Under the pieces are notes generated by a model that was given only the letters and a program-made list of their open reading frames with translations, did no database searches and had not been told where the DNA came from. A stretch of 64,000 nucleotides of DNA from Goekera deserti (GTDB lineage: Bacteria > Actinomycetota > Actinomycetes > Mycobacteriales > Geodermatophilaceae), in the NCBI RefSeq assembly GCF_010685995.1, contig NZ_JAAGWK010000024.1, forward strand, positions 62,001 through 126,000, written 5' to 3'. The position numbers and the translations under genes were made by a program. This document shows, one piece after another, positions 5,233 to 25,621 of this stretch (the first letter of the stretch is position 1; every line of letters begins with the position of its first letter).

Positions 5233-8195
5233 CGACGACCTCCGCGCCCGGCACCGGGATCGGCCCCGGCCCCGCCGCCGAGACCCGGCTCGCGTCGTTC
5301 CGCCGGTACTGCGCGCAGCGCACCGGCCGGCCGCTGGAGCGCCCCGGGGACCTGCACGCCTTCTCCCTGGACGACGCACCGACGTTCTGGCGTGCCCTGC
5401 TGGAGTGGTCGGCGCTGCCGTGGTCCGGGTCCGCCGACCGGGTGGTCGTGGGCACCGACGTGGAGACCGCCCGGTTCTTCCCCGACGTGCGGCTCAACTA
5501 CGCCGCGGCCCTGCTCGGCCCGCGCCCGGACGTCGACGACGCGTCCGCCGCGGTGACCTCGGTGCACGCGGACGGCTCGACCCGCACCGTGGACCGCCGC
5601 GGGCTCCGCGCGGCCGTCGGGCAGGCCGCGGCGGCGCTGCGCCGGCTCGGGGTGCGGCCCGGGGAGCAGGTGGTGGTGGTGGCCGGCAGCGACCTGCCGA
5701 CCGTGGTCGCGGTGCTGGCCGCCGCTGCCGTGGGCGCGACCGTGTCCACCGCGATGCCGGACATGGGCGCCCCGGTGCTCGTCGACCGGTTCGGCCGCAC
5801 CGACCCGGTGCTGCTGTTCCTGGACCGGGCGGCGGTGCCCGGCGACGCCGACGCCGCCGGGCACGCCCTCGTGAGCGGGCTGCCGGGCCTGCGGCACGTG
5901 CTGCTGCTCGACGACGGCGCGGCGCCCGAGAGGTGGCCGGTGGACACCCGGTCGTGGGCCGGCGAGCTGACCGGTGTCCCCGCCGAGCCGGTCGAGCGAT
6001 GGCCGGCCCTGCCCTTCGACCACCCGCTGTTCGTGCTGTTCTCCTCCGGCACCACCGGCCCGCCGAAGGCCATCGTGCACGGGGCGGGCGGCACCCTGCT
6101 GGAGCACGTCAAGGAGCACGCGCTGCACGGCGACCTGGGGCCGCGCGACGTCCTGTACGTCCACACGACCACCGCCTGGATGATGTGGCACTGGCAGCTG
6201 TCCGCCCTGGCGGTGGGCGCCCACGTCGTGCTGTACGACGGGCCGGTGAGCCGGCCGGCGACGCTGTGGGAGCTGGTCGCGCGGCACGGCGTCACGGTGT
6301 TCGGCACCAGCCCGGCGCACCTGCAGCTGTGCCAGGACACCGGCCTGCGGCCCGGCGAGACCCTGGACCTGGGCCGGCTGCGTGCCGTGCTCTCCACCGG
6401 GTCGGTGCTGCACGACTGGCAGTTCGACTGGGTCGCCGACGCCGTGGGGCCGGTGCCCCTGCAGTCGATCTCCGGCGGTACCGACGTGCTGGGCTGCTTC
6501 GTGCTCGGCCACCCCGAGCTGCCGGTGCGCCGCGGCTGGTCCCAGGCCCGGAGCCTGGGCCTCGACGTCGCCGCCGTGGACGAGGCCGGCCGCGAGGTGC
6601 GGGGCCGGGTCGGTGAGCTGGTGTGCCGGCGGCCCTTCCCGTCCCGGCCGGTCGGCTTCCGCCAGGACCCGGACGGCCGCCGGTTCCACGACGCCTACTT
6701 CGCCGCGCACCCCGGCATGTGGACCCACGGCGACCTCGTCGAGATCGCCCCCGACGGCGGGGCTCGGGTGCACGGCCGCTCGGACGGCGTGCTCAACGTC
6801 GACGGCGTGCGGATCGGCCCCAGCGAGGTGTACCGCGCCCTGCAGGGCGTGCCGGGCATCGCGCAGGCCATGGCGGTCGAGCAGCGCGACCCGCGGTACG
6901 CCGGCGCCTCCCGGATGGTGCTGCTGGTGGTGCTGCACCCGGACGCCGACCTGGACGGCGACCTCGCCCGCACCCTGCGGGCGACCGTCCGCCGCCGCGC
7001 GTCGGCGGCGCACGTGCCCTCGCTGGTCGTCGCCGTCGACGAGCTGCCGGTGACCCACAGCGGCAAGCCCTCGGAGACCGCCGCCCGGGACGCCGTCAAC
7101 GGCGACCCGGTCCGCAACGAGGGGGCGCTGCGCAACCCGGGCTGCCTGACCGGGATCCGCGCGGCGGTCGCCCGGGCCGGCCGCTCCACCGTGCCCACGG
7201 CGGACGCCGACGCCCGGGCGCTGACCACCTCCGCGGCCGCCGACGCCGACGCCGACCGGGTGGCCGCGGAGGCAGCCCGCCTGTGGCGCGAGGCCCTCGG
7301 CCTGGACCGGGTCGGCCCGGACGACCACTTCGCCGACCTGGGCGGCACCTCCCGGCAGGTGATGACCCTGCTGCGCCGGGTGGCACTCGAGTTGGGCGCC
7401 GACGTGCCGGTCGAGGACTTCCTCGCCGAGCCGACACCGGCCGGGTTGGCCCGGTGCGTCGCCCGCGCCCGGTCGGCGCCGATGCCGGACGTGGTGGAGC
7501 TGCGGGCCGGGGTCGGCCGGCCGGTGTTCCTGCTCTGCGACGCGTGGGGGCAGTTCAACTCCCTGCACGCCCTCGTGCGGGCCCTGCACACCGAGCGCCC
7601 GGTGCTCGGCCTGCACCCGCCGCTGGCGGACGCGGCGGGACGCCGGCGCAGCGTCGGCGAGCTCGCCGACGCCTGCCTGGTCGCCGCGGCCGGGCGCCAG
7701 CCGGCGGGCCCGCTGAGCCTGCTCGGCTACTCCTTCGGCGGGCTGGTGGGCTACGAGACCGCGGTGCGGGCCCGGGCGGCCGGCCGGCCGCTGGGCTGGC
7801 TGGGTCTGATCGACGTCTTCCCGCCCACCGCCTCGCTCACCCGAGGGGAGGCACGGGCGCGCCGCTGGGCGGGCCGGCTGGACACCCTGCGCTCCCCCGC
7901 CCGGTTGGCGCACCGGCTGCACCACCGCGTCCCCGGGGTGGGGCAGGGCGTCGAGGAGGCCGCCTGGACGCAGTCCTGGCTGGTGGCCGCGGCGCACCGC
8001 CTGTCGCCCTACGACGGGCCGGTGACCTACTACGCGGCCACCCGGGGTCTGCCGCTGGTGGGCAACACGCTGTCGGCGTGGCGCCGCGCGGCCCCCCACC
8101 TGCTGGTCACCGAGCTGGCCGGGGACCACGAGGACCTGCTGTCCGCCGCCCGCGTCGACCTGCTCGCCGCGCGGGTGTCCGCGACCCTGGCCTGA
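5229..8195 (+). CDS. Single-module NRPS-like synthetase: adenylation, carrier, thioesterase
   Basis: A 988-residue protein with three domains. Residues 20-660 form an acyl-adenylating domain whose N-terminus and length resemble acetoacetyl-CoA synthetase rather than an amino-acid A domain. Core motifs: LFSSGTTGPPKAIVH at about 269, SISGGTDVLGCF at 413, MWTHGDL at 496, GRSDGVLNVDGVRIGPSE at 515, and THSGKPSE with the catalytic Lys at about 612. Residues 685-755 are a carrier domain with DLGGTS (phosphopantetheine Ser about 707). Residues 765-988 are an alpha/beta-hydrolase thioesterase with GYSFGG (Ser about 834), LIDVF (candidate Asp about 861) and GDHEDLL (candidate His about 967). There is no condensation or ketosynthase domain. 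It would activate one carboxylic acid, load it on itself and release or transfer it. The substrate, perhaps a beta-keto acid, cannot be read from sequence. Confidence 0.88.
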   Translation: MTTTSAPGTGIGPGPAAETRLASFRRYCAQRTGRPLERPGDLHAFSLDDAPTFWRALLEWSALPWSGSADRVVVGTDVETARFFPDVRLNYAAALLGPRPDVDDASAAVTSVHADGSTRTVDRRGLRAAVGQAAAALRRLGVRPGEQVVVVAGSDLPTVVAVLAAAAVGATVSTAMPDMGAPVLVDRFGRTDPVLLFLDRAAVPGDADAAGHALVSGLPGLRHVLLLDDGAAPERWPVDTRSWAGELTGVPAEPVERWPALPFDHPLFVLFSSGTTGPPKAIVHGAGGTLLEHVKEHALHGDLGPRDVLYVHTTTAWMMWHWQLSALAVGAHVVLYDGPVSRPATLWELVARHGVTVFGTSPAHLQLCQDTGLRPGETLDLGRLRAVLSTGSVLHDWQFDWVADAVGPVPLQSISGGTDVLGCFVLGHPELPVRRGWSQARSLGLDVAAVDEAGREVRGRVGELVCRRPFPSRPVGFRQDPDGRRFHDAYFAAHPGMWTHGDLVEIAPDGGARVHGRSDGVLNVDGVRIGPSEVYRALQGVPGIAQAMAVEQRDPRYAGASRMVLLVVLHPDADLDGDLARTLRATVRRRASAAHVPSLVVAVDELPVTHSGKPSETAARDAVNGDPVRNEGALRNPGCLTGIRAAVARAGRSTVPTADADARALTTSAAADADADRVAAEAARLWREALGLDRVGPDDHFADLGGTSRQVMTLLRRVALELGADVPVEDFLAEPTPAGLARCVARARSAPMPDVVELRAGVGRPVFLLCDAWGQFNSLHALVRALHTERPVLGLHPPLADAAGRRRSVGELADACLVAAAGRQPAGPLSLLGYSFGGLVGYETAVRARAAGRPLGWLGLIDVFPPTASLTRGEARARRWAGRLDTLRSPARLAHRLHHRVPGVGQGVEEAAWTQSWLVAAAHRLSPYDGPVTYYAATRGLPLVGNTLSAWRRAAPHLLVTELAGDHEDLLSAARVDLLAARVSATLA

Positions 8196-8203
8196 GCCGG
8201 CGG

Positions 8204-11749
<3,546 letters not shown>

Positions 11750-12043
11750 GGTGGGTCCACTCCTGGGTGCCGGTGGCCGCGCTCGTCGCGCCGGGTGCAC
11801 GGGGGGCCGGTCCCCAGGTTAGCGCCGTCGCGCAGCGTGCTGGTCCGGCGCGGACGTACCCCGTTCGGTGGAGGGCGACAGCAACCGGCACACCCCTTGG
11901 GATGACACCGGGCCTCGAGACGTCAATGCAGGTCAGGACGTTGCCGACTCTGTCCTCACAAGATCCGCAGCGGATCCCCACGTCGCCCCCGGCACGTCGT
12001 CCGTGACAGCTGCGGGTCGTCGCTCGACGCGTGGAGGACCGGT

Positions 12044-12958
12044 ATGCGCACGACCGTGGACACCGCCTGGCTCGGCCCTGTCTCCGTGACGGGGCTCACC
12101 GAGCGAGCGGTGGGCGACTCCGTCGTCCAGGCCATCTCCGAGGGTCGAGGCGGGTCGATCGTGACCGTCAACATCGACATCCTGCGCGCCGCCACCCGGG
12201 ACCCCGCGTACGCGCGGCTGGTCGCCGCCGCCGAGCTCTCCGTCGCCGACGGGATGCCCGTGGTGTGGGCCGCCCGGCTCGCCGGGGCGCGCGTGCCCGA
12301 GCGCGTCACCGGCGCCTCGCTGGTCTTCTCGCTGTGCGAGTCCGCTGCCCGCACCGGCCGCTCCGTCTACCTGATCGGCGGTCTGCCCGGGGTCCCGGAG
12401 GCAGCGGGGCAGGCCCTCGCCGCCCGCTACCCCGGGCTGCGGGTGGTCGGGGCGGTGTCACCGCCGTTCGGGTTCGACCAGGACGAGCAGGAACTGGCCG
12501 CCCTGGAGTCGGCCGTCACGGCGGCCGCGCCGGACCTCGTCCTCGTCGGCCTCGGCTTCCCCAAGCAGGAACGGCTGATCGCCCGGCTGCGGCCGCTGCT
12601 CCCGCACGCCTGGTTCCTCGGCTGCGGTGCGGGCATCCCGATGGCGGCGGGCCAGTTCCGGCGCGCACCGCAGGTCGCCCAGCGGCTCGGGGCCGAGTGG
12701 CTGCACCGGCTCGCCCAGGAACCGCGGCGCCTGGCCCGCCGGTACCTGGTCGACGACCTCCCCTTCGCCGTCCTGCTGCTGGCCCGGACCCTGGCCGCCC
12801 GGGTGACGGCGACCGCCGCCCCGCGGCCGGTGCTGCCGGTGGCCGTCCCGCCGACCCTCACCCTGGTCCCGCCCGTGCTCGCCGAGGCGGTCGAGGAGGG
12901 CGCGACGGTGCACGTGCTGCCGCAGGCCGCCCTGCTGCCCCCCGTGGTGCAGGCGTGA
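12044..12958 (+). CDS. WecG/TagA/CpsF family glycosyltransferase
   Basis: Inverting glycosyltransferase family (GT26) that adds a sugar such as N-acetylmannosamine(uronic acid) to a polyprenyl-linked acceptor early in wall or surface polymer assembly. It has 304 residues. Family blocks: VTVNIDILRAATRDPAYARL near residue 40, LSVADGMPVVWAARL near 66 with the conserved catalytic-type Asp, VYLIGGLPGVPEAA near 107, VLVGLGFPKQERLIA near 167, then AWFLGCGAGIPMAAGQFRRA. The RLGAEWLHRLAQEPRRLARRY block marks the membrane-contacting end. A Pro/Val-rich tail of about 50 residues is extra. A GGAGG lies 7 bases before the ATG. The preceding 294 bp (11750-12043) hold no gene and should contain this operon's promoter; I found no convincing -35/-10 pair. 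The stop overlaps the next start. Confidence 0.9.
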   Translation: MRTTVDTAWLGPVSVTGLTERAVGDSVVQAISEGRGGSIVTVNIDILRAATRDPAYARLVAAAELSVADGMPVVWAARLAGARVPERVTGASLVFSLCESAARTGRSVYLIGGLPGVPEAAGQALAARYPGLRVVGAVSPPFGFDQDEQELAALESAVTAAAPDLVLVGLGFPKQERLIARLRPLLPHAWFLGCGAGIPMAAGQFRRAPQVAQRLGAEWLHRLAQEPRRLARRYLVDDLPFAVLLLARTLAARVTATAAPRPVLPVAVPPTLTLVPPVLAEAVEEGATVHVLPQAALLPPVVQA

Positions 12959-15039
12959 GCGGGGGCACGACCCCGCCGGCGGGACGGCCGCTGGCCGTCG
13001 TCGTCGTCACGTTCCACAGCGCCGAGGTGGTGGCCGGGTGCCTGCAGTCGGTGGGCCACGCGCTGGCCCGCGCCGGTCGCGCCGACGCCGAGGTGATCGT
13101 GGTGGACAACGCCTCCGGCGACGGCACGCTGGACGCGGTGCGCGCGGCCGCGCCCGCGGCCACCGTGCTCGCGCAGGCCGGCAACGACGGCTTCGCCGCC
13201 GGGGTGAACGCCGGCCTGCGGCACGCCGCCGGCCGGGACGTGCTGGTGCTGAACCCCGACGTCCGGTTGGCCCCCGACGCGGTCCGGCTGCTCCTGGAGG
13301 GCCTCGCCGTCCCGGGGACGGGCATCGCCGTCCCGCGGTTGCTCGGCGCGGACGGGACGACGCAGCCGTCCCTGCGCCGCGCACCGACGGCGCGGCGCGC
13401 CTGGGCCGACGCGCTGCTCGGCGGCCGCCGGGCCGGACGGCTGGGCGAGATGGTCACCGACCCGTCGGCCTACCGGGGCGAGCAGCTGCCGGACTGGGCC
13501 ACCGGTGCGGTGTGGCTCGTCTCGGCCGAGTGCAGCGCGGCGCTGGGCCTGCTCGACGAGCGGTACTTCCTCTACAGCGAGGAGACCGAGTACATGCTGC
13601 GCGCCGGCGACCACGGGCTCGCCGTCCGCTACGTCCCGGAGGCGGAGGCGGTGCACATCGGGGGCGAGCAGTCGACGTCCCCCGCGCTGTGGGCGCTGTC
13701 GGTGACCAACCGGGTGCGGCTGCACCGCGAGCGCGCCGGCCGCGCGGCCGCGGCGGGCATGCGGCTGGCGGCCGTCACGAACGAGGCGCTCCGGTCGGTG
13801 CGCGGGCCGGATGCCGCCGTGCACCGGGCCGGCCTGCGGGCGCTGCTGCGGATGCCGGCCTGGCCCGAGCGCCCGGCCGCCCCGCGCGGACCCGCCTACG
13901 TCTGCTTCGCCGCGCAGGACTGGTGGTACCACAACACGGCCCACTCGGACTTCCAGCTGATGCGGTCGCTGGCCGAGCAGCGGACGGTCCTGGTGGTCAA
14001 CAGCATCGGCATGCGGATGCCCACGCCCGGCTCCAGCACGCAGGTGACCCGGCGGGTCCTGCGCAAGCTGCGCAGCGTCGCCAAGCTCGTGCGCCGACCG
14101 CTGCCCGACGTGCCCGGCTTCCACGTGATGTCCCCGCTGCCGCTGCCCTTCTACGGCTCCGCCGCCGGGCGTGCCGTGGGTGCCGCCGTCGTGCGGCTGC
14201 AGGTGCGCGCGGTGTGCCTGGCGCTCGGCATCCGGCGCCCGGTCGTGGTCGCCACCCTGCCCACCGCCTGGGACGTCGTCCGGCCGATGGCCCGCACGGC
14301 GCTGGTCTACAACCGGTCGGACAGGCACTCGGACTTCCCGGAGGCCGACCGCGAGGCGATCGCCGCGCTCGAGCAGCAGATGCTCACCCACTCCGACCGG
14401 GTGCTGTACGTCAGCCGGGCGCTGATGGAGGAGGAGCGAGCGCTCACCGGCGAGCGCGCGGTGTTCCTCGACCACGGCGTCGACGTCGACCACTTCGCGC
14501 CGCGCGAGGACGACGACCTGCCCGCCGACCTGCGCGCGATCCCCGGCCCGCGGATCGGGTTCTTCGGGGCACTGGACGACTTCGTGGTCGACTTCGACCT
14601 GCTGGAGCGGGTGGCCGTGGAGCTGCCGGACGCCTCGCTGGTGCTGGTCGGCAGCTCCTCGCACCCCATGGAGCGCCTCACCCGGCACCCGAACGTGCAC
14701 TGGCTGGGCCGGCGGCCCTACGCCGAGATCGCCGGCTACGGCGCGGGCTTCGACGTCGCGCTGATGCCGTGGGTGGACCAGCCGTGGATCCACCGCTGCA
14801 ACCCGATCAAGCTCAAGGAGTACCTGGCCCTCGGCCTGCCCGTGGTCAGCACGCCGTTCGCCGAGCTCGACCACTACCGGGACCGGGTGCGGGTGGCCGA
14901 CGCCGACGGGTTCGTCGCCGCCGTCCGGGAGTCCCTGGAGTTCGGCCCGCTGCTGGAGCCGGAGAAGCTGCGCACCTCGGTGCTGCCCTGCTCCTGGACC
15001 TCCCGGGCCGAGCTGCTGCGCGAGATCGTGGAGGGCTGA
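12955..15039 (+). CDS. Bifunctional GT2-GT4 glycosyltransferase fusion
   Basis: A 694-residue protein joining two glycosyltransferases. Residues 10-260 are a GT2 (rhamnosyltransferase-like) domain: LAVVVVTFHSAEVV, EVIVVDNASGDGT near 44, VLNPDVRLAPDAV near 97 as the DXD-equivalent region, and LPDWATGAVWLVSAE. Residues 315-694 are a GT4/GT-B domain starting AYVCFAAQDWWYHNTAHSD, with a nucleotide-sugar region IGFFGALDD, and NPIKLKEYLALGLPVVSTPF near 620. There is no membrane segment. The GTG start overlaps the TGA of the WecG-like gene by four bases, so both are made together. It ends 5 bp from the convergent DUF4082 gene. Two consecutive sugar additions by one polypeptide is the simplest reading; the sugars are unknown. 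Confidence 0.88.
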   Translation: MSGGTTPPAGRPLAVVVVTFHSAEVVAGCLQSVGHALARAGRADAEVIVVDNASGDGTLDAVRAAAPAATVLAQAGNDGFAAGVNAGLRHAAGRDVLVLNPDVRLAPDAVRLLLEGLAVPGTGIAVPRLLGADGTTQPSLRRAPTARRAWADALLGGRRAGRLGEMVTDPSAYRGEQLPDWATGAVWLVSAECSAALGLLDERYFLYSEETEYMLRAGDHGLAVRYVPEAEAVHIGGEQSTSPALWALSVTNRVRLHRERAGRAAAAGMRLAAVTNEALRSVRGPDAAVHRAGLRALLRMPAWPERPAAPRGPAYVCFAAQDWWYHNTAHSDFQLMRSLAEQRTVLVVNSIGMRMPTPGSSTQVTRRVLRKLRSVAKLVRRPLPDVPGFHVMSPLPLPFYGSAAGRAVGAAVVRLQVRAVCLALGIRRPVVVATLPTAWDVVRPMARTALVYNRSDRHSDFPEADREAIAALEQQMLTHSDRVLYVSRALMEEERALTGERAVFLDHGVDVDHFAPREDDDLPADLRAIPGPRIGFFGALDDFVVDFDLLERVAVELPDASLVLVGSSSHPMERLTRHPNVHWLGRRPYAEIAGYGAGFDVALMPWVDQPWIHRCNPIKLKEYLALGLPVVSTPFAELDHYRDRVRVADADGFVAAVRESLEFGPLLEPEKLRTSVLPCSWTSRAELLREIVEG

Positions 15040-15044
15040 CCGGG

Positions 15045-17090
15045 CTACAGGCGCACCCGGTAGACGTGGGTCGTGTGCTCCTGGGCGAAGGCGTCGGTGA
15101 ACGACCCGTCCGCCGCGTCCAGGGTCCGGCCCTCGTCGAGCACCTCCACCGACCCGGAGACGCCCGGCGGCAGCGCGAACGTGTACGTGCCCGACGTGCT
15201 GGCCGAACGGGCCTGCTGGGCGAACACGTAGAGGTGGCCGTCGTAGGCCTTGGTCATCGTGACGGTGCCGCTGCCGTGGTCCCAGGCGTAGGACTGCGTG
15301 TTCAGCACCGGCGCCAACGCCTGGATCCGGGCGTCGAGAGCGGTCACCCGCGCCTGCACCGAGCGGTAGTGGGAGCTCGTGGACTCGGTGAGCGCGTCGG
15401 GGGTCGGCTGGGTGCCGAAACCGTGGGAGAAGTAGCCCACGATCCGCGCCTCCCCGATCAGCGAGGACCAGACGGCGCCCTCGATGCGGTCCGGGGTCAT
15501 GGTGGCGTGGGCGAAGTCGCCCGGCGCCTCGGCGTTCTGCTGGCCCAGCTCCACCAGCGTGCCGATGGCGGTGTACCGGCCGTCGGCGGCGTCCAGCTGG
15601 CGCAGGCGCGCCATCGTGACCTGCCCGTAGTTCGCCGCCCGGTGCACCTGGTCGCGGGGCACGTCGTAGAAGGTGGTCGCCTCCCCCGGGATGGCAGGGT
15701 CGCCGCCGTGCAGGTTGGCGTCGGTGTACCAGTACATCGAGGCGGTGGTCACGTCGACCGGCCGGTCGGGGGTGCCGTTGACGTAGTCGGCGGCGGTGGC
15801 GGCAGGCCACCACATGTTCGCCCCCTTGCCGGTCTGCAGGTACCGCACCCGGCCGTCGGTGGCCACCGAGGCGGACTGCTGCCGGCGCAGCACGTCCTGC
15901 GCGCAGCCGGTGCCGGCGGTGGTGCAGATCGTGCCCTGCCCGGGCCAGCGGCCGGTCCAGGTGCCGCTGCCCGTGCCGGCCCACATGTCGGCCTCGTCGG
16001 CGTACATCCGGCCGACCCACTCCGTCCCCGAGCCGCCCGGGTCCCAGCCCAGGTTCTGGATGCCGGCGCTGCGCATCCGGGCCGCCGAGCCCGCGTCGGT
16101 GGCGTACAGCTCGCCGTAGGTGGTGATGCCCGCGGCGGCGTGCCGGTCGACCCGCTGCTGGTCGTCGACGTAGGCGCCCCAGTACATGATCGGGAAGTGG
16201 TCGGCCGAGGCGAGCCGGGTGCCCGCCGTGGCCGGGAACTGCGACCAGTAGGCCGGCCCGCCGTTCCAGGGCACTCGCGGCAGGTCCGCCAGCGCCGCCG
16301 GGGCCCCGGCCGAGGGGGCCGGCGCGGTGGCCGGCGCGGTGGTCGGCGCCGGGCCGGCCGTGGTGCCCGGGGCGGTGGTGGTCGTCGGGGCCGGCGTGGT
16401 GGGGGCGGCTGTGGTCGGAGGCGGGGTGGTCGGGGCCGGCGCCGTCGTGCCCGGCAGCGTGGCTGGCGTCGTGGCCGTGGGTGCCGTGGGGGCGGTCGTG
16501 GTCGGCACGGGCGTCGGACCGGGCCGGAACACCGGGGTGACGCCGTAGTCCGAGGACCGCCACACGTCCTGCGGCAGCGCCGCGGTGCGGCCGTAGTGGT
16601 AGACCCCGGCGCCCGCCGGCGCGGACAGCGGACCGGATGCCCGGGGCACGTCCCACCAGCCGACCGTGGCGGAGTACCGCCCGCGCGGGGCGAGGTAGGA
16701 GGCCACGTAGGTCCGGCCCGCCAGGACGGGCACCGGTGCCGCGAAGGGGGTGGACACCGTGCCCGTGCGGGTGCCGGAGCCGGTCGCGGCGGCCAGCTGC
16801 GCGCCGGTCGCGGCGTCCCACAGCTGGACGGCGCGGGCGGTGTCGGCCGTCGTCGCGCGCCGGAACTCGACCGCGGTGACCACGCCGTCCACGGCCGGGG
16901 TGAACCGGACGCCCAGCGTCACGGCGGCCCGGTCGTCGTCGACCGCGCTGCTGACCGGCAGCGGCAGCCGCACGCCCGCCCCCTGGGTGGCCGACACCGT
17001 GCTGAGGTGCACCGCGCCGCCACCGAGCAGCGCCACCAGTGCCGACGCGAGCAGGCACACCCACAGACGCCAGCTCGACCGGTTGCGCAC
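15045..17090 (-). CDS. Secreted DUF4082 plus glycoside-hydrolase-like protein
   Basis: A 681-residue exported protein. Residues 1-35 form a signal peptide (RNRSSWRLWVCLLASALVA). Residues 40-165 form a DUF4082-type beta-sandwich (VTLGVRFTPAVDGVVTAVEF, then YVASYLAPRGRYSATVGWW). Residues 180-245 are a Thr/Pro linker. Residues 250-681 are a second domain that I cannot assign to a named family. It shares ITTYGEL, YADEADMWAG, HRAANYG, GTLVELGQ and VWSSLIGEA with the protein at 17385. Strands ending in acidic residues followed by a late aromatic/Gly strand resemble clan A TIM-barrel glycosidases, with the ADE and VELG acids as candidate catalytic pair; this is inference. The GTG at 17088-17090 is fixed by AGGAGG four bases upstream. 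The 294 bp upstream gap (17091-17384) carries no other gene I can support. Confidence 0.8.
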   Translation of the reverse strand: MRNRSSWRLWVCLLASALVALLGGGAVHLSTVSATQGAGVRLPLPVSSAVDDDRAAVTLGVRFTPAVDGVVTAVEFRRATTADTARAVQLWDAATGAQLAAATGSGTRTGTVSTPFAAPVPVLAGRTYVASYLAPRGRYSATVGWWDVPRASGPLSAPAGAGVYHYGRTAALPQDVWRSSDYGVTPVFRPGPTPVPTTTAPTAPTATTPATLPGTTAPAPTTPPPTTAAPTTPAPTTTTAPGTTAGPAPTTAPATAPAPSAGAPAALADLPRVPWNGGPAYWSQFPATAGTRLASADHFPIMYWGAYVDDQQRVDRHAAAGITTYGELYATDAGSAARMRSAGIQNLGWDPGGSGTEWVGRMYADEADMWAGTGSGTWTGRWPGQGTICTTAGTGCAQDVLRRQQSASVATDGRVRYLQTGKGANMWWPAATAADYVNGTPDRPVDVTTASMYWYTDANLHGGDPAIPGEATTFYDVPRDQVHRAANYGQVTMARLRQLDAADGRYTAIGTLVELGQQNAEAPGDFAHATMTPDRIEGAVWSSLIGEARIVGYFSHGFGTQPTPDALTESTSSHYRSVQARVTALDARIQALAPVLNTQSYAWDHGSGTVTMTKAYDGHLYVFAQQARSASTSGTYTFALPPGVSGSVEVLDEGRTLDAADGSFTDAFAQEHTTHVYRVRL

Positions 17091-17094
17091 GTGT

Positions 17095-17100
17095 CCTCCT
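17095..17100 (-). promoter_or_regulatory. Ribosome binding site AGGAGG fixing the start at 17090
   Basis: On the minus strand AGGAGG is followed by four bases and GTG. This decides between the signal-peptide start at 17090 and the longer in-frame ORF reaching 17279. Confidence 0.8.
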
Positions 17101-17384
17101 GCAGGGCAGCCACTGTCGGACGGCCCGCGCGCGCGGCGGGTGCCGTGCGGGCCGGGCCGTTCGGCGACACCCCCGTGCCGGAGCACTGCGCTCCACCGCG
17201 GCGCACCGCCGGGGCGATCGAGGTCCCGGCCGGTGCGCCGACCGTCGGCCGACGGCGCACAACATGGCACGCCGCACACACCCGGGGACAGGTTCCTGAT
17301 CGTGGAGGTGCCCCGCGCGTGCCCTGGCTGCCCACGAGCCCCACCCGCCGCAGCACCACCACCGTGCCGCGCCGGCCCGACGGG

Positions 17385-18752
17385 TCAGAACCGGCAGCCG
17401 GCCCCGTCCGGGACCTCGTACACGTGGGTGCTCCCGGCGCCGGCGAACCGGTCGCTGAACACCCCGCCGGTCATCGGCACGCTGCGCTGCTCCCCGAACA
17501 CCGACACCGTGGCGTCACCGGCACAACCCACCCGGAAGGTCGCGCCCGAGGCGCCCTCGCCGGTGGCGGTGGCCAGCAGGTGCAGGTCGCCGCCGCTGTA
17601 CTTGGTCAGCACGTCGACGTCGCCGGCCACGGTGGTGGCGCCGTCCACCGTGGGGGCGTTGAGCACCGGCGCCAGCGAGCGCAGCTGCTCGTGCAGCTCG
17701 GTCACGGTGGCCCGCACGTCGGCGTAGCAGGGGTCGCGCAGCGCGTGCTGGGTGGGGCAGGGGCCACCGAAGCTGTGGCCGAAGTAGACGATCCCGCGCG
17801 CCTCGTGCACCAGGCTGCTCCACACTGCGGCGCGCACCTGCGCGGCGGTGATCGAGGGCTCGGCGTCATCGGTGGAGGGGTGGCCGAGCTCGACGAAGGC
17901 CCACACCGGCCGGCTGCCGGCCGGTTGCACCAGCGAGCGCACGCGGTCGACCATCAGGCCGTAGTTGGCCGCCCGGTGGCAGAGCGCGTCGGGCAGCCGT
18001 CGGTCGGCGTCCAGTGCCTCGGTGCCGAGCAACCGGGCGCCCTCCCCCTCGCCGCACAGGTGTCCGTCGGTGGACCAGTACGCGTCCACCGACACGACGT
18101 CCTGGTAGGCGTTGACGAAGCGGGCGGCGTCGGCGTCGTCCATGCCGAACAGGACGCCCTTGCCGTAGTTGGCGAACCGCAGCCGCCCGTCGGCCGGCAG
18201 CTGGTCCAGCAGCGTCTGCTGGACCGTGTAGCCGCAGGGGGCCTCGACCGGTGCGCACACCTCACCCTGCCCCGGGTAGGAGCCCGTCCACGGCGCCTCG
18301 CCCGGACCGGCCCACATGTCGGCCTCGTCGGCCAGCAGCCAGCCGGTCACCGGTCCCGGCCGCGGCCCGGACACGATCGCGGACATGCCGGCCCGGCGCA
18401 CGGCGTCGAGGTCGCTGCCCTCGGTCAGCTCGACGTAGGTGGTGATGCCGGCCGCCGCGTCGTCCCGGGCGGTGGTCAGGTCGGGCACGTCCTGGTACCA
18501 GAGCCCGATCGGGAAGTACGACGGGTCGACCGGCAGCCCGTCGGCGAACCGGGCGTGGAAGTCCGGCCCGCCGTCGACCGGCCGCAGCCGGGGCGGCCCC
18601 GGGGCGGCCGGCGGGGGCGCCGGTGCGAGCACCCGGGCCGCGCCGAGCCGGTCCGTTGCAGGTCCGGCACCGGCGAGCCCGGCCCCGGTCAGCAGCGCAC
18701 CGGTCAGCACGGCGACCGCGACCGACACCAGCACGCGCGGCGTGCGCGTCAC
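17385..18752 (-). CDS. Secreted glycoside-hydrolase-like protein, paralogue of the gene at 15045
   Basis: A 455-residue protein with an N-terminal signal or anchor (RTPRVLVSVAVAVLTGALLTGAG in part, about residues 3-30), a short Ala/Pro linker, then one domain of about 380 residues. It shares ordered motifs with the C-terminal half of the protein at 15045: ITTYVEL, LLADEADMWAG, RFANYGKG, HRAANYG, WAFVELG and VWSSLVHEARGIVYF. Several Cys residues, absent from the paralogue, suggest disulfides outside the cytoplasm. I cannot name the family; a clan-A-like glycosidase acting on the polymer of this cluster is the working guess. The GTG at 18750-18752 overlaps the TGA of the Wzy-like gene (GTGA), making this the last gene of the long operon. 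Confidence 0.78.
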   Translation of the reverse strand: MTRTPRVLVSVAVAVLTGALLTGAGLAGAGPATDRLGAARVLAPAPPPAAPGPPRLRPVDGGPDFHARFADGLPVDPSYFPIGLWYQDVPDLTTARDDAAAGITTYVELTEGSDLDAVRRAGMSAIVSGPRPGPVTGWLLADEADMWAGPGEAPWTGSYPGQGEVCAPVEAPCGYTVQQTLLDQLPADGRLRFANYGKGVLFGMDDADAARFVNAYQDVVSVDAYWSTDGHLCGEGEGARLLGTEALDADRRLPDALCHRAANYGLMVDRVRSLVQPAGSRPVWAFVELGHPSTDDAEPSITAAQVRAAVWSSLVHEARGIVYFGHSFGGPCPTQHALRDPCYADVRATVTELHEQLRSLAPVLNAPTVDGATTVAGDVDVLTKYSGGDLHLLATATGEGASGATFRVGCAGDATVSVFGEQRSVPMTGGVFSDRFAGAGSTHVYEVPDGAGCRF

Positions 18753-20668
18753 GACAGGCGCCCCCGGAGACGGCGCAGCACCGCGGACAGGGTCAGGGCC
18801 GCCAGCCCGGCGAGCACCGCCGCGGTGGCCAGCCCGATGGACCGGCGCACCGGCAGCTCGACGACCTCCGCGGTGGTGAAGGACTCGACGGCGGCGACCT
18901 CGTACGTCGGGTCGACGCCGCGCTCGCTCTGCAGGGCGTGCAGCTCGGCGACCAGCTCGTCGCGGACCAGGGCGGCGCGGGCCTGCGCCTCGGCGACCGT
19001 CGACCCGCTGGTGCCCACCCACATCACGTCGCCGTACCCCACCACCTCGGTGTTCGGCGCGAGGCTGCCGGTGCCCACGGCCACCTGGTAGTCACCGGCG
19101 CCGAGCTGCACCAGCCGGGCCCGCTCGCGCGGGCTCTGCATCACCTGGTGCACGAGGTCGGTGACCCCGGTGATCTCCAGCTTGCCGTAGAAGATGTTCT
19201 GCCCCGGGCGGGGCGGCACGGCGAGGGCGATCGACCCCCGGGCCTCGTAGCTGGGCACGGCGACCGAGACGTGGGCGGCACCGGCCAGCAGCACCGAGGC
19301 CGACACGACGACCACCGACGCCCGCTCGGCCAGGGACGCCCCGCGGCCGGCGCCGGCCGGCGGGACCGGGGGTCGCACGGTCGCCGACGCAGCACCGATC
19401 AGCCCGATGAGCACGAAGAGCACGCCCATCGCCATCGGGAAGCTGAAGGCGTCGAAGGTGAGGAACAGCAGCGCCGCGACGGCGACCCCGGTGGCCAGCG
19501 CCGCCGCCAGGAGCCGGTCGGGCCCCGGCTCGGACAGCACGGCGACCCGGGCGGCCAGGAGCACGGCGCCGCCGAGCAGCGCCAGCAGGACCGCGAGCCC
19601 GAGCAGGCCGCCCTCGACCACCGACCCGAGGTACTGGTTGTCCAGGGTCCGGTAGATCGAGGGCAGGAAGGTGAACGGGCCCCGGCCCAGCCACGGCACC
19701 TCGGACACGAAGGCCTCGACGGCCGGGTAGTCGCCGGTGCGCGCGGTGATGCTGGTGTCCGAGCCCGCCGCCAGGAACAGGTCGCGCAGCGTGCCCAGCA
19801 GGCCGGGGCTGGCCACCACGAAGCCCCCGACGGCGACGGGGCTCAGGGCCACCATCAGCCAGCGGATCCGCCGCGGGACCACCACGAAGGTGAACAGCAG
19901 CCCGACGGCGAGCCCGATGATCCCCGACCGGGCCACGGTCAGCGGCATGGCGCCGGCGATGAGCAGGGCCTGGAGCAGTGCGGTGCGGGTGCGCAGCCGG
20001 AGGGCCTCGGTGGCCGCCAGCGGCAGGATCATGGCGAGCACGGCCGCGAACTCGATGGAGTGGATGGCCGTCGCGTTGACCCGGTGGAAGCCCGCGCGCT
20101 CGTACAGGGACGCCGAGGCGTTGCGGGACAGGCCGGGCACGGACAGCTGGGCGATGAAGTCGAAGCCGGTGGCGAACTGGAACAGCCCCAGCAGGGCCAG
20201 CACCGTCCCGAGGCCGACCAGCAGGCGGACCACGGAGAACAGCCGGAGCCGCCCACGGGCGCAGTCGGCGAGGAACAGGGCGACACCGGCCCAGCCGAGC
20301 ACGACGATCACGCCGCGCACCATGCTGTTGGTCTCCAGGGCGCTCATCGGCCGGGCGGCCGCCGAGGTCACCGCGGCGAGCAGCCCGGAGACGAACAGCA
20401 GCACCAGCCAGTGGACCGCCGTCGTGCCCAGGTCCGGCCGTGCCCGGGTGACCCGGGCGAACACCCACAGCACGAGCAGCAGCAGCCCGACCAGGCCGGC
20501 GGGTGTGCCCGCCGCCCCGAGCGGGCCGACGACGAACACCGACGGGACGAGGACGAGCAGGACGAGGTAGGCGGTCGCCGGCAGCGTCGAGGCCCCCGGG
20601 TCGGCCGGGACCCCGCCCCCGGTGGTGCCGACGGCGCGAGGAGCCTCCAGCGTCGGACTAGGGGACAC
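18749..20668 (-). CDS. O-antigen ligase/Wzy-like polymerase fused to a Wzz-like module
   Basis: A 639-residue polytopic membrane protein. About a dozen hydrophobic segments span residues 20-440. They include the long periplasmic loop typical of Wzy_C/WaaL proteins, with RTGDYPAVEAFVSEVPWLG and GPFTFLPSIYRTLDNQYLG between helices. From about 446 the protein changes: one TM helix (ASVVVVSASVLLAGAAHVSV), an extracytoplasmic stretch with ARGSIALAVPPRPGQNIFYG, then a final TM helix (IGLATAAVLAGLAALTLSAV) and a basic tail. That topology and the start of the loop match Wzz-type chain-length proteins. The GTG at 20666-20668 overlaps the end of the separate Wzz-like gene by 11 bases. Predicted role: polymerisation of the repeat unit with built-in length control, at the cytoplasmic membrane. 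Confidence 0.83.
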   Translation of the reverse strand: MSPSPTLEAPRAVGTTGGGVPADPGASTLPATAYLVLLVLVPSVFVVGPLGAAGTPAGLVGLLLLVLWVFARVTRARPDLGTTAVHWLVLLFVSGLLAAVTSAAARPMSALETNSMVRGVIVVLGWAGVALFLADCARGRLRLFSVVRLLVGLGTVLALLGLFQFATGFDFIAQLSVPGLSRNASASLYERAGFHRVNATAIHSIEFAAVLAMILPLAATEALRLRTRTALLQALLIAGAMPLTVARSGIIGLAVGLLFTFVVVPRRIRWLMVALSPVAVGGFVVASPGLLGTLRDLFLAAGSDTSITARTGDYPAVEAFVSEVPWLGRGPFTFLPSIYRTLDNQYLGSVVEGGLLGLAVLLALLGGAVLLAARVAVLSEPGPDRLLAAALATGVAVAALLFLTFDAFSFPMAMGVLFVLIGLIGAASATVRPPVPPAGAGRGASLAERASVVVVSASVLLAGAAHVSVAVPSYEARGSIALAVPPRPGQNIFYGKLEITGVTDLVHQVMQSPRERARLVQLGAGDYQVAVGTGSLAPNTEVVGYGDVMWVGTSGSTVAEAQARAALVRDELVAELHALQSERGVDPTYEVAAVESFTTAEVVELPVRRSIGLATAAVLAGLAALTLSAVLRRLRGRLS

Positions 20669-21419
20669 GCGCGCTGCTGAGACCGGAGTCGAACCTGCGC
20701 ACGTCGGCCGAGCCGGCCCGCTCCGGCAGACGCTGGACGGTCCGGTCGTCCGCGCCGGTCGCGGACTGCAGCGGGTCCTCGGCCACGCCACCGGGCTGCT
20801 CCCGGCTCGCCCCGTCCGCGGCCCGGCCGCGACGCCGGCGCTCGAGCAGCAGCAGGAGCAGCAGGCCGACGACGAGCACGCCGAGCACGCTCACCGCGGC
20901 CGCACGCAGCCGGGCAGAGTCCACCGGGGTGGCCGACGGGTCCCGGGTGAGCTGGCTGATCGTCACCCAGGAGATCTGCGGCGCACCGCTGTCCTGCTGC
21001 AGCTGGGCCAGCTGGACCACCAGCTGCTCGCCGACCCGGTCCAGCACGCGGGCCACGTCGGCCCGCTGCGGTCCCTCGGCGACGACGACGACGACGGGTG
21101 CCGCGGTCGCCGGGTCCCCGGCGATGGTGAAGCTCGCGCCCGGCACGCCGTCGGTGATGCCGGCGGCCGTCTGGCCGGCGGCGACCTTGGTCATCAGGAC
21201 GCCGGCGGCCATGCTCACGCCGTTGCCCAGCTGCAGGAAGGGGTTGCCGGGACCCTGCTCGGTCACCACCGGGGACAGCAGCAGGAAGCGCTCGGTCTGC
21301 GACCAGGTCGGCGGGGTCGTCCGGTAGACGAGACCACCGGCCAGGACGGCGACGACCAGGACCGGGGCGATCAACCACCGCCACCGGAGCAGCACCCGCG
21401 CCAGCTCAGCGAGGTTCAT
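20658..21419 (-). CDS. Wzz-like chain-length determinant protein
   Basis: A 253-residue membrane protein. An N-terminal TM helix at about 13-33 follows NLAELARVLLRWRW, the usual Wzz opening. The extracytoplasmic segment (about 35-170) contains SQTERFLLLSP and GNPFLQLGNGVSMAAGVL and ends PRADVARVLDRVGEQLV-like in helical character. A second TM helix follows at about 178-200 with a basic cytoplasmic tail rich in Arg and Gln. No ATP-binding or kinase domain is attached. ATG at 21417-21419 with a purine-rich GGAAGG upstream. It is directly followed by, and overlaps, the Wzy-Wzz fusion, so it probably works with it to set chain length. Confidence 0.82.
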   Translation of the reverse strand: MNLAELARVLLRWRWLIAPVLVVAVLAGGLVYRTTPPTWSQTERFLLLSPVVTEQGPGNPFLQLGNGVSMAAGVLMTKVAAGQTAAGITDGVPGASFTIAGDPATAAPVVVVVAEGPQRADVARVLDRVGEQLVVQLAQLQQDSGAPQISWVTISQLTRDPSATPVDSARLRAAAVSVLGVLVVGLLLLLLLERRRRGRAADGASREQPGGVAEDPLQSATGADDRTVQRLPERAGSADVRRFDSGLSSARVP

Positions 21420-21502
21420 GGGGGCCTTCCCGTCGCAGTGATGTCCCGGGCCGACGACGCAGCCCCGCGGTTGATCTCCCACTCTAAGCGAGTCGGACGC
21501 TC

Positions 21503-22789
21503 TCAGTCATCGAACAAGGACTCCGCGTCACCCATTGGGTGGACGTGTCCCCTCTCCCACGGCGCACTGGCGGTGGGCGGGGGCGCCTGCCCGGCGCAGG
21601 CCGCCTCGATCGCGCGGACCACCGCGCGACCGGCCGGCTCCCAGCCGGTCCCGCGCACGCTGTGGCTGATCTCGGTCGGGGAGGACGACCGGGCGGCGTC
21701 GACCGCGTGCTCCAGCGCCGCCGCGACCGCGGCGGGCGTGGGCCGGGCCCACCGGACGTGCGGGTTGTCCAGGTCCGCGCGCGGGCCGGGCGAGTCGTTG
21801 ACCACCGGCACCGCGCCGGCGGCCAGGAGCTCGGCGGCGATCAGCGAGATGTTGGTGAACGACAGGGCCAGCCCGGCGGCACAGCGGTTGTAGAGCACGT
21901 TGAGCTCCGCCGGGGACAGATGGGTGTGCGCCCGCACCGGGAAGGGCAGCCGGGGACCGGCCGAGCCGAAGGTGTTGATGACGACGTCGGGACGCCGGGC
22001 GGCGAACAGCTCCAGCGACCACACCCCCAGCTCGTACCCCCGGCGGGCGGCTCCGGGGCGCGCGTAGAACACGACCTCGTCCCGGGGCCGGGGGTCCAGC
22101 AGCCCGTAGGTGTCCAGGTCGGTGCCGAACGGGGCGACCGTGGCCTGCACACCGAAGCGGTCGTGCAGCTCCTCGGCCACCATGTGCCCGATCGAGATCA
22201 CCTGGAAGCCGAAGCGGTAGGTGTCCTCGGCGAGCGCGGCGACCGCCCCGCGGCCGTAGAAGTACGGCTCGTAGTCCTGGACCAGGTAGAAGCGCCGGCC
22301 CGCGGTCGCGGTGTGCCGGGCCAGGACGTGGGCGGTCTGCCAGGCGGTCGCGACGTGGGCGTCCAGGGAGGGCAGCCCGTCGGCGACCGCCCGCACCGGG
22401 GCGACCACCTCCGGCCACGCGGCGCGGATCACGGCCTCCCGTGCGGGCAGGTCGGCCGGTGCGACGTCGACGAGGTACAGCACGCACCGGTGCCCGGCCT
22501 GCTCGAGGGCCCGCACCATCCGGAAGACCGTGGTGTGCCCGCCGGAGCCGGCCGCCGGCGGGGTCAGCACCCAGCCGATGTCCAGCGGGCTGCCCGGCGC
22601 CCGGGTGGGGCCCACCGGTGCCGGGGCCAGGGTGGCCGAGTCGACGATCTCCTCGGGCCGCAGCAGCAGCGCCTCGGGGGCCACGTTGAGTCGCCGGTTG
22701 GCCGCGCGGACCAGCCGCTCGGCCACGCCCTCCCAGCCCTCCTGCCGCAGTGTGCGGACGCCCTTGCTGGCGGTGCCGACGACGTTCAT
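21503..22789 (-). CDS. WsaF-like GT4 (rhamnosyl)transferase
   Basis: A 428-residue soluble glycosyltransferase. It has the WsaF-type pattern: an N-terminal helical extension, DIGWVLTPPAAGSGGHTTVF near residue 69, FYLVQDYEPYFYGRG near 171, and the GT-B second half with VVFYARPGAARRGYELGVW near 247 and LSFTNISLIAAELLAAG near 313. In the characterised family member the enzyme adds beta-linked rhamnose to an S-layer glycan; the donor here is not proven. ATG at 22787-22789 with GGGGAG upstream. It sits between a GT2 gene and the Wzz-like gene in the long operon. Confidence 0.85.
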   Translation of the reverse strand: MNVVGTASKGVRTLRQEGWEGVAERLVRAANRRLNVAPEALLLRPEEIVDSATLAPAPVGPTRAPGSPLDIGWVLTPPAAGSGGHTTVFRMVRALEQAGHRCVLYLVDVAPADLPAREAVIRAAWPEVVAPVRAVADGLPSLDAHVATAWQTAHVLARHTATAGRRFYLVQDYEPYFYGRGAVAALAEDTYRFGFQVISIGHMVAEELHDRFGVQATVAPFGTDLDTYGLLDPRPRDEVVFYARPGAARRGYELGVWSLELFAARRPDVVINTFGSAGPRLPFPVRAHTHLSPAELNVLYNRCAAGLALSFTNISLIAAELLAAGAVPVVNDSPGPRADLDNPHVRWARPTPAAVAAALEHAVDAARSSSPTEISHSVRGTGWEPAGRAVVRAIEAACAGQAPPPTASAPWERGHVHPMGDAESLFDD

Positions 22790-22856: not shown

Positions 22857-24050
22857 TCACAGGCCGGTCCGGCGCCAGAGCAGGCGGCGTGCCTCCGTCG
22901 CGAGCCGGTGGCCCACCGCCGGCAGCAGCAGGGTCGGCACGAATCGTGCCCGTCGCGGGCCCACCCGCAGGGCCACCGCGAGTCGACGCGCCGAGGGCAG
23001 CGCGGCGGGGTCGTCGACCTGCGAGGCGGCGAAGGCCAGGTAGGCGTCGGTGGTGGCGTCGCCGCCCCAGCCGCGGGTGACCGCCTGCGCCACCCGGGCG
23101 ACGGCCTCCTCGGCCAGCGCGGCGCGGGCGACGGCGAGCAGCCGGGCGTCCTGCAGAGGGTCCCCGAGGCCGTCGGTGAACAGCACCGTCATCGCGTCGG
23201 CCCGCTCGCGCAGGTCGGTCAGCACGTCGACGTCCCGCGCGGAGCGGCTGGCCGGGTGCTCGCGGTGGAACGCCTGGTCCGGTCCGTCGACGCGGCCGAC
23301 GTCGGCCGCCCGCGCCAGCCGGTACCACATCTCCATGTCGTGGGTGTGGTCCAGATCGCGCTGGCCGCCGACCTGCTCGACCACCGAGGTGCGCATCAGC
23401 ACCTCCGGTGAGGTGATGCAGTTGACCCCGGTGCGGCACCGCAGGTCCAACCACTCCGGCCCGGACCAGACCGTCCACGAGCGCACCCGGGTGCGTGCGG
23501 GCGGCAGCCGGTCACCGGAGAAGTGCCGTGGCGAGCCGTAGACCAGACCCACTTCGGGGAAGGCGTCGGCCAGCGCGGTCGCCCGGGCCAGCGAGCCCGG
23601 GGTCAGCGCGTCGTCGGCGTCCAGCCGGACCAGGTACTCACCGCGCACGTGCCGCAGGCCCTCGTTGAAGGTGGCGACCGGCCCGCCGTTCACCGGCCGC
23701 GCCACCACGGTGACCCGCGGGTCGGCGGCGGCGAGCCGGCGGGCGACGGCCAGCGAGTCGTCGGTCGATGCGTCGTCCACCACGACCACGTCGACGTCGA
23801 CGTCCTGCTGGTCCAGCGCGCTGCCGACGGCGACCGGCAGGTGACGGGCGTAGTCGAAGCAGGGCACGACGACGGTCACCCGCGGGCGCCGCGACGGCGC
23901 GACGCCGGTCGGGGCGCCGGTCGGGGTGCGGGCACCGGAGACCAGCCCGCCGCGGGCCCCGGACAGCCGGCGCGCGAGGCGGAGCCACGGGCCGGCACCG
24001 AGCCGGGGTGGCCGGGGCGCCGTCGGCGACTCCGGGGTCAGCACGCTCAC
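22857..24050 (-). CDS. GT2 family glycosyltransferase
   Basis: A 397-residue GT-A transferase. A Pro/Arg-rich lead of about 55 residues precedes RVTVVVPCFDYARHLPVAVG. VVVVDDASTDDSL follows near residue 88, and YLVRLDADDALTPGSL near 135 contains the DXD metal and sugar-nucleotide motif. DHTHDMEMWYRLARAADVG near 235 supplies the ED-like catalytic region. A C-terminal helical and basic region ends RRLLWRRTGL. Start GTG at 24048-24050 with GGAGC upstream; the in-frame ORF that continues to 26132 would overlap the flippase and is a shadow. It acts on the cytoplasmic face on a polyprenyl-linked intermediate. Confidence 0.88.
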   Translation of the reverse strand: MSVLTPESPTAPRPPRLGAGPWLRLARRLSGARGGLVSGARTPTGAPTGVAPSRRPRVTVVVPCFDYARHLPVAVGSALDQQDVDVDVVVVDDASTDDSLAVARRLAAADPRVTVVARPVNGGPVATFNEGLRHVRGEYLVRLDADDALTPGSLARATALADAFPEVGLVYGSPRHFSGDRLPPARTRVRSWTVWSGPEWLDLRCRTGVNCITSPEVLMRTSVVEQVGGQRDLDHTHDMEMWYRLARAADVGRVDGPDQAFHREHPASRSARDVDVLTDLRERADAMTVLFTDGLGDPLQDARLLAVARAALAEEAVARVAQAVTRGWGGDATTDAYLAFAASQVDDPAALPSARRLAVALRVGPRRARFVPTLLLPAVGHRLATEARRLLWRRTGL

Positions 24051-24106
24051 GGGATGCTCCGATCGGGGGTGGGTGGTGCCAGGGGTGGCGGGGGCGGCGG
24101 TCCGGT

Positions 24107-25621
24107 TCACGACGACCCGGCCGCGGACGCCGGGACGGCGACCGGGGCGGTGCCGCTGGGACCGGGAGCGGGCAGGTCCGCCGTGCCGGTGCCGGTACTG
24201 GTGTCGGTGCCGGCCGGCGTGGTGCGCGCCCAGCCCAGCGCCCACCGGCCGATCAGCAGGGCGTAGACGGCGAGCCCCACGGTGCCGCCCAGCAGCAGGG
24301 CGAGCGCCGGGTGCTCGACCCGGGCGGACAGCAGGCCGCTGGCCAGGACCGCCGGCACGACGGCCAGCAGCGGCGGCCAGAGCCGGCCGAGCACGGTCCA
24401 CGGCGAGGCGCCGGCCCGCCGCACGGCGACGAGGTAGCCGGGCAGCACGACCAGCAGCGCGACCGCCAGGTGCGCCCAGCCGGCCGCGGCCAGCCCGCCC
24501 CGGGCGGTGGCCAGGACCATCACCGGGACGAGCGTCACCGCCCACACCACCTGCAGGACCAGCACGGCGGTGACCGAGCCGCGGGCGATGAGGAAGGTGG
24601 CCAGCACGTCGAGCACGATCCGCAGGGCACCGAAGGCGGCCAGCCCGGCCAGCGCGGCCGCCGAGGGCGCCCACCGCTCCCCGTAGAGGACGGCGACGAC
24701 CGGGCCGGCCAGCACGGCGAGCAGTGCACCGGCGGGCACGGCCACGGCGGCGGTGAGCGCCGTCGCGCGGCCGAGCCCGGGCCCGGGGTCCTCGTCCTGC
24801 TGCCGGCTGAAGGCGGCGAGGGTGACCGGCCGGATGGCCTGCCCGATGGCGGTCATCGGCCAGGAGGAGACGTTGAAGGCGAGCACGTAGAAGCCGAGCG
24901 CGACGACGCCCAGGCTGCGGCTGACCACCACGTTGTCGATGTTCAGCAGCGCCCAGGAGAGCATGTTCGCCAGTGCCAGCGGCGCGCCGAAGCGCAGCGC
25001 GCTGCCCGCCACCTGCCGGTCGAACCCGAACCGCGGCCGCACCCGGGCCAGGGCGAACTGCAGGCACGTGGTCACCACCTGCCCGACCAGCCGGGACAGT
25101 GCCAGGGCCATCGGCCCCACCCCGAGCAGGACCAGCGCCACGACGACGGCGGTGGAGACAAGGAAGGCGCTCGCGTCGACGGCGAACAGCTTCTTCTGCT
25201 CGAACCGGCGCTGCAGCTGGGCGTACGGCACGACACCGGCGCCACTGAGCACCAGGGTGCAGGCCAGCACCACGATGACCGGCGTCGCCGCCTCGCTGCC
25301 CAGCGCGATCGCCACCGGCCGGGCCGTGACGATCATCAGCACGGTCAGCAGCGCGCCGCTGACCAGGCTGAGCGTGGCCACCGTGGGCGCCCGGCGCTCG
25401 GGGTCCTCGGCGCGGACCAGGTCCGCGCTGAGACCGAGGTCGGCCAGGGTGACCAGCACGGCCTGCACGGTGAGCGCGACGGCGAAGACCCCGAAGTCCT
25501 CCGGGGCCAGCAGCCGGGCCAGCACGATCCCGGTGACCAGGCTGCCGGCGCGCAGCAGCAGGCTGCTCACCGCGCTCCAGCCGAGCCCGCGGCGCACCTG
25601 GCCGTCCAGCGTCGCGCTCAC
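24107..25621 (-). CDS. Polysaccharide flippase, Wzx/MOP family
   Basis: A 504-residue polytopic membrane protein with 12-14 predicted helices. It begins MSATLDGQVRRGLGWSAVSS, a classic lipopolysaccharide/teichuronic-type exporter opening (MurJ/MATE/Wzx superfamily), followed by GIVLARLLAPEDFGVFAVAL near residue 31. It would flip the undecaprenyl-PP-linked repeat unit across the membrane. The last 50 residues are Thr/Gly/Ala-rich and disordered. The GTG start overlaps the stop of the upstream GT4 gene by four bases. Confidence 0.9.
   Translation of the reverse strand: MSATLDGQVRRGLGWSAVSSLLLRAGSLVTGIVLARLLAPEDFGVFAVALTVQAVLVTLADLGLSADLVRAEDPERRAPTVATLSLVSGALLTVLMIVTARPVAIALGSEAATPVIVVLACTLVLSGAGVVPYAQLQRRFEQKKLFAVDASAFLVSTAVVVALVLLGVGPMALALSRLVGQVVTTCLQFALARVRPRFGFDRQVAGSALRFGAPLALANMLSWALLNIDNVVVSRSLGVVALGFYVLAFNVSSWPMTAIGQAIRPVTLAAFSRQQDEDPGPGLGRATALTAAVAVPAGALLAVLAGPVVAVLYGERWAPSAAALAGLAAFGALRIVLDVLATFLIARGSVTAVLVLQVVWAVTLVPVMVLATARGGLAAAGWAHLAVALLVVLPGYLVAVRRAGASPWTVLGRLWPPLLAVVPAVLASGLLSARVEHPALALLLGGTVGLAVYALLIGRWALGWARTTPAGTDTSTGTGTADLPAPGPSGTAPVAVPASAAGSS

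Follow-up and report, generated by a model that had tools for sequence, protein, structure and literature searches.

Why does a polysaccharide operon of the Wzx/Wzy type carry two genes for secreted proteins that resemble each other and no named family? The question is raised by a stretch of 64,000 nucleotides from Goekera deserti (NCBI RefSeq assembly GCF_010685995.1, contig NZ_JAAGWK010000024.1, positions 62,001 to 126,000 of the forward strand), referred to here as the window and numbered from its first letter. On its minus strand, protein B (17385 to 18752, 455 amino acids) and protein A (15045 to 17090, 681 amino acids) have in common a domain of about 400 residues, which we named X. We consider it rather probable that A and B, once exported, stay attached to the envelope, that they are glycosidases of an unclassified type within glycoside hydrolase (GH) clan GH-A, and that they process the polymer of their own operon. 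This interpretation, a family that is new although both the type of enzyme and its setting are familiar, is supported by sequence and predicted structure.

Two exported paralogues sharing the X domain

Both open reading frames (ORFs) were found on the minus strand, and they encode the only X copies in the genome. The most likely start of B is the GTG at 18752, which overlaps the stop codon of the Wzy gene (GTGA), so that B and Wzy are probably translationally coupled. About 295 bases separate B from the start of A, most likely the GTG at 17090, which directly follows an AGGAGG ribosome site. Each protein begins with a hydrophobic export or anchor stretch. In B this is followed by a single X domain (residues ~53-451); in A it is followed by a DUF4082 domain (16539 to 16946, minus strand, residues 49-184), a Thr/Pro-rich linker read from the sequence (16296 to 16523, minus strand, about residues 190-265) and the X domain (residues ~268-681). 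BLASTP aligned A and B over the entire X domain with 148 of 421 residues identical (35%) and an E-value of 1e-48, a likeness far beyond chance, and the motifs ITTY-x-EL, ADEADMWAG, RAANYG, VELG and VWSSL all occur in the same order in both. The DUF4082 match (PF13313) of A is full-length and scored 111 bits (cut-off 28.4; E 6e-32); B has none.

Pfam, NCBIfam and PHROGs gave no above-threshold match for X in A, B and 19 homologues, and comparison with the PDB by sequence, single or profile, returned chance matches only. Taken together, these searches indicate that X is probably an unclassified family. No relative of X was found in the viral contigs searched, and a viral fold library yielded weak barrel matches only, of no use for naming. 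The sequence-only reading had described two secreted paralogues with ordered motifs, of which one carried a DUF4082 module and a Thr/Pro linker, had been unable to place them in a named family and had attached them to a Wzy operon. All of this was borne out, the last point by the position of B directly downstream of the Wzy_C gene and by a linkage that holds across actinobacteria, as described below.

A predicted barrel with two conserved glutamates

An AlphaFold2 model of X was generated from 8 sequences (pTM, the predicted template modelling score, 0.86; mean pLDDT, the predicted local distance difference test, 78.6). Residues are given in A2 numbering, to which 40 is added for B. The model is a (beta/alpha)8 barrel followed from residue 328 by a C-terminal beta-sandwich; its strands are, in order, 42-47, 65-69, 84-87, 97-102, 151-155, 179-184, 243-250 and 281-285, most neighbouring strands being separated by helices. 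Fold comparison with the PDB gave 442 matches at E <= 1e-3, and the 50 listed, with E down to 3e-11, were barrel glycosidases, mainly of the GH13, GH29 and GH30 types. The clan-A-like barrel that had been suggested from the sequence, and that was to be abandoned if another fold were predicted, is in agreement with this eight-strand model.

Two glutamates stand at the positions expected of a catalytic pair. Glu103 follows directly after strand 4 and is the proposed acid/base; it corresponds to Glu143 of B in the ADE motif (18324 to 18326, minus strand) and to Glu366 of A (15993 to 15995). Glu248 lies in strand 7, at its end, and is the proposed nucleophile, corresponding to Glu288 of B in the VELG motif (17889 to 17891, minus strand) and to Glu514 of A (15549 to 15551). 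Judged from their strand positions, both would share one pocket. Asp102-Glu103 is invariant in the 21 homologues and Glu248 is kept in 20 of them, the exception being L025.

A GH42 profile built from an alignment of the same and related genomes was compared with X by hhalign. The score was 39-44; none of 100 GH42 profiles with shuffled columns exceeded 27, and the reversed profile gave 14. Glu248 was aligned with the invariant Glu of the GH42 'LLMEQ' motif, which we take to be the nucleophile position, and in an extended alignment, a part of low confidence on its own, Glu103 also fell on the Glu of the GH42 Asn-Glu motif. The two acids that had been picked from the ADE and VELG motifs are thus those that end strands 4 and 7 and fall on the conserved Glu pair of GH42. 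The glutamates at these strands, together with the profile alignment, point to the clan GH-A type, which would imply a retaining mechanism. Of the three families proposed beforehand for comparison, the likeness to GH42 stood, whereas those to GH5 and GH39 did not: the cellulase family GH5 (PF00150) was rejected as parent (hhalign score 18-20, probability < 1%), and no Pfam glycosidase match above cut-off, GH39 (the PslG family) included, was obtained for X of A, B and the 19 homologues.

X and GH42 (PF02449) are alike in their clan GH-A barrel, in the Glu residues on strands 4 and 7, in detectable profile similarity and in the strand-6 S-x-D-x-Y and strand-8 GA-x-G-x-x-(Y/F)F motifs. Unlike GH42, X has Asp-Glu for Asn-Glu at strand 4, lacks the long insertion between strands 3 and 4 and possesses a C-terminal beta-sandwich of its own. 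Sub-threshold Pfam Glyco_hydro_42 matches were seen in three divergent homologues (best E 5.8e-4); the gathering score was reached by no member (best 19.8 versus 21 bits), and A and B were unmatched. Membership of X in GH42 was rejected, on the grounds of the Pfam cut-off and of the Asp that replaces Asn before the acid/base. The Asn that precedes the acid/base Glu in clan GH-A (NE) is absent from X, with Asp in 21 of 21 homologues; this NE pair is usual, not universal, in the clan.

A keeps both glutamates. It has Gln419 for the strand-5 Asn and Ser451 for the strand-6 Asp, both of which are kept by nearly all homologues, and its branch is longer than that of B (1.36 versus 0.55), the position of the A/B split being left unsettled by the tree. 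These substitutions suggest that A likely has a changed specificity or a reduced activity. Its DUF4082 domain was modelled as a confident beta-sandwich (pLDDT 90.3, pTM 0.88), for which the PDB fold matches were PHR domains, viral capsid and fibre sandwiches and, weakly, carbohydrate-binding modules CBM6 and CBM35; this is no proof of carbohydrate binding. A literature search on DUF4082 found hardly any mention of it. DUF4082-X fusions occur in A and at four other loci (L005, L031, L033 and L034). At L005, from a metagenome-assembled genome, a single frame of 1047 amino acids (8048-11191, plus strand) contains Wzy_C, DUF4082 and X. It may reflect a sequencing slip or a missed internal start; if real, polymerase and processing enzyme would be one protein.

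Linkage of X to a Wzx/Wzy-type operon

On the minus strand, the order of transcription is a GT4 glycosyltransferase (25618 to 26859), a Wzx-type flippase (Polysacc_synt_3; 24107 to 25621), a GT2 glycosyltransferase (22857 to 24113), a WsaF-type glycosyltransferase (21503 to 22789), a Wzz-like chain-length protein (20658 to 21482; PF02706, sub-threshold), the Wzy-type polymerase (PF04932; 18749 to 20668), B and A. Convergent with A, on the plus strand, are a WecG/TagA/CpsF glycosyltransferase (12044 to 12958) and a two-domain GT2-GT4 glycosyltransferase (12955 to 15039). Among the operon neighbours of X, the GT4 half of the latter is conserved best, with ~65-70% identity in close relatives.

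X was detected at E <= 1e-3 in 8 of 199 relatives, one match being a weak fragment, in 5 of 395 genomes of the class and in 3 of 396 of the phylum, with the window's own genome counted in each sample. Carriers include Arthrobacter, Pseudarthrobacter, Citricoccus, Microbispora, which also has two tandem copies, and a metagenome-assembled genome. Neighbourhoods of ~20 kb were scored for eight operon families (Wzx/Wzy/Wzz/WecG/glycosyltransferases), and 20 random regions from the related genomes served as controls. At least three of the eight families were present in 16 of 18 X neighbourhoods, while none of the 20 controls had more than one. X and the operon GT4 occurred together in 6 of the 8 relatives with X, against ~0.4 expected (hypergeometric 7e-8, a figure that ignores their kinship). 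X is almost only found beside Wzx/Wzy-type operons; L025 and L036 lie outside them. The L025 homologue (11956-13134, plus strand), which is distant and has no operon neighbours, is the sole plasmid match and resides on a 1.35-Mb Arthrobacter plasmid. Its strand-7 Glu is replaced by Thr, and it is probably inactive.

By eye and with a simple pattern, a lipobox-like N-terminal motif was recognized in about nine homologues and a signal or anchor helix in several others, B probably included. Such N-termini suggest that X works outside the membrane, near the site of Wzy polymerisation. There, the substrate of A and B would be the heteropolysaccharide that their own Wzx/Wzy/Wzz operon produces. The Glu after strand 4 would serve as acid/base and the Glu ending strand 7 as nucleophile in a retaining double displacement, and cutting of nascent or stray chains would set chain length, release polymer or clear build-up near the polymerase. 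The DUF4082 domain, if it binds carbohydrate, may hold A on the polymer or matrix.

Alternative readings and comparable systems

Several observations weigh against a role of A and B as glycosidases of their operon. The TM-scores of the fold matches are low (0.3-0.47): structure supports the class of fold and gives no guide to the nearest family. Confidence in the GH42 alignment is confined to strands 6-8 (~100 columns, probability 47-69%). The strand-5 Asn and the strand-6 Asp are missing from A, and hence A and B need not share one job; given these losses and the loss of the strand-7 Glu in L025, some members of X may be inactive. X is also sporadic: two genomes (G060 and G038) have the operon GT4 at >= 66% identity and lack X, which is therefore not essential for every such polymer.

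The same Glu pair would equally serve a transglycosidase that passes the polymer to another chain, to the cell wall or to a surface protein, and so anchors or cross-links it. Retaining clan-A barrels are able to transglycosylate (GH17/GH72), and the surface anchoring of many members, the DUF4082 fused to A and a giant multi-DUF4082 surface protein encoded nearby all fit a job in attachment. The sequence holds nothing that separates this activity from hydrolysis; however, the operon enzymes studied so far (PslG, PelA and AlgL) cut their polymer, and we regard transglycosylation as unlikely, although it is the foremost of the alternatives. Less likely again is a binding role: X as a whole, or A if no other member, would be a barrel with little or no catalysis that attaches to the polymer and so guides it or organises the surface. 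Gln419, Ser451 and the long branch of A would fit such a role, as would the loss of the second Glu in L025 and the predicted beta-sandwich of DUF4082. Yet binding alone would not need a Glu pair, and 20 of the 21 homologues, some with as little as ~20-30% identity, have kept it. Finally, most TIM-barrel glycosidases are catabolic, and with L025 and L036 outside such operons X might be an ordinary secreted nutritional glycosidase for foreign glycans that lies beside the operon by accident. The occurrence of 16 of 18 loci, in several actinobacterial families, with the operon, the start-stop overlap of B and Wzy and the single Wzy-DUF4082-X ORF of L005 make this coincidence very improbable.

Processing of the operon's own polymer by A and B also has precedents in function. 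X is like PslG, a GH39 enzyme of clan GH-A, as a glycosidase encoded in a polysaccharide operon, PslG acting on the polymer of its own operon; it differs in family and host, and the function of X is a predicted one. The PelA hydrolase domain and AlgL, of unrelated families, are further works-like analogues and belong to Gram-negative synthase-type export, not to Wzx/Wzy. PslG of Pseudomonas aeruginosa is co-transcribed with the psl genes, and both its activity and a phenotype have been shown (PMC9075953). The hydrolase activity of PelA gives rise to the short form of Pel that is secreted, and AlgL rids the periplasm of polymer (PMC9894940, PMC8829089). WceF of Pantoea stewartii is a glycosidase tied to a polysaccharide biosynthesis cluster with Wzc (PMC7949094); unlike X, it is a trimeric, tailspike-like beta-helix of unrelated fold. 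By analogy, X may work like these four proteins, and by the tests made it is in none of their families.

The reason for a glycosidase in a synthesis operon is still debated (PMC9075953). Most of the operon-encoded glycosidases known, PslG and PelA among them, come from Gram-negative biofilm systems, and a broad literature search on actinobacterial clusters of the present type gave no specific result. X, a family without a name, belongs to Gram-positive actinobacteria; it lies almost always beside the same Wzy-type operon, and its two catalytic residues are clearly predicted. If confirmed, it would be a new enzyme family, and it would provide a tool to cut the polysaccharides of actinobacteria and, for DUF4082, a first functional context.

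The giant surface protein (32631 to 40442, minus strand) is a secreted protein of 2603 amino acids with a DMFA2_C domain (N,N-dimethylformamidase-beta-like), 5 DUF4082, 7 Big_5 and 2 F5/8-type-C domains. The six DUF4082 domains of the genome all lie in the cluster, five in this protein and one in A, and multi-DUF4082 proteins like it lie next to X in L003, L004 and L031; the protein is a possible matrix partner. A more speculative extension, to which we give a limited chance, is that X founds a new clan GH-A family for actinobacterial Wzx/Wzy polymers with a division of labour, in which B would process chains at the polymerase and A, with its DUF4082 and altered pocket, would re-attach or hold the polymer on the surface together with the giant DUF4082 protein.

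The Wzy polymerase has a conserved C-terminal extension which, past the last polymerase helices, reads as a Wzz-type periplasmic domain. By tblastn it carried into L003, L027 and L028, other relatives having a shorter Wzy match. Further upstream of the operon, genes for two DegT aminotransferases, a hexapeptide acetyltransferase, an epimerase and a Gfo/Idh/MocA dehydrogenase (27465 to 32509, minus strand) form a nucleotide amino-sugar set, and the polymer therefore probably contains an acetamido sugar.

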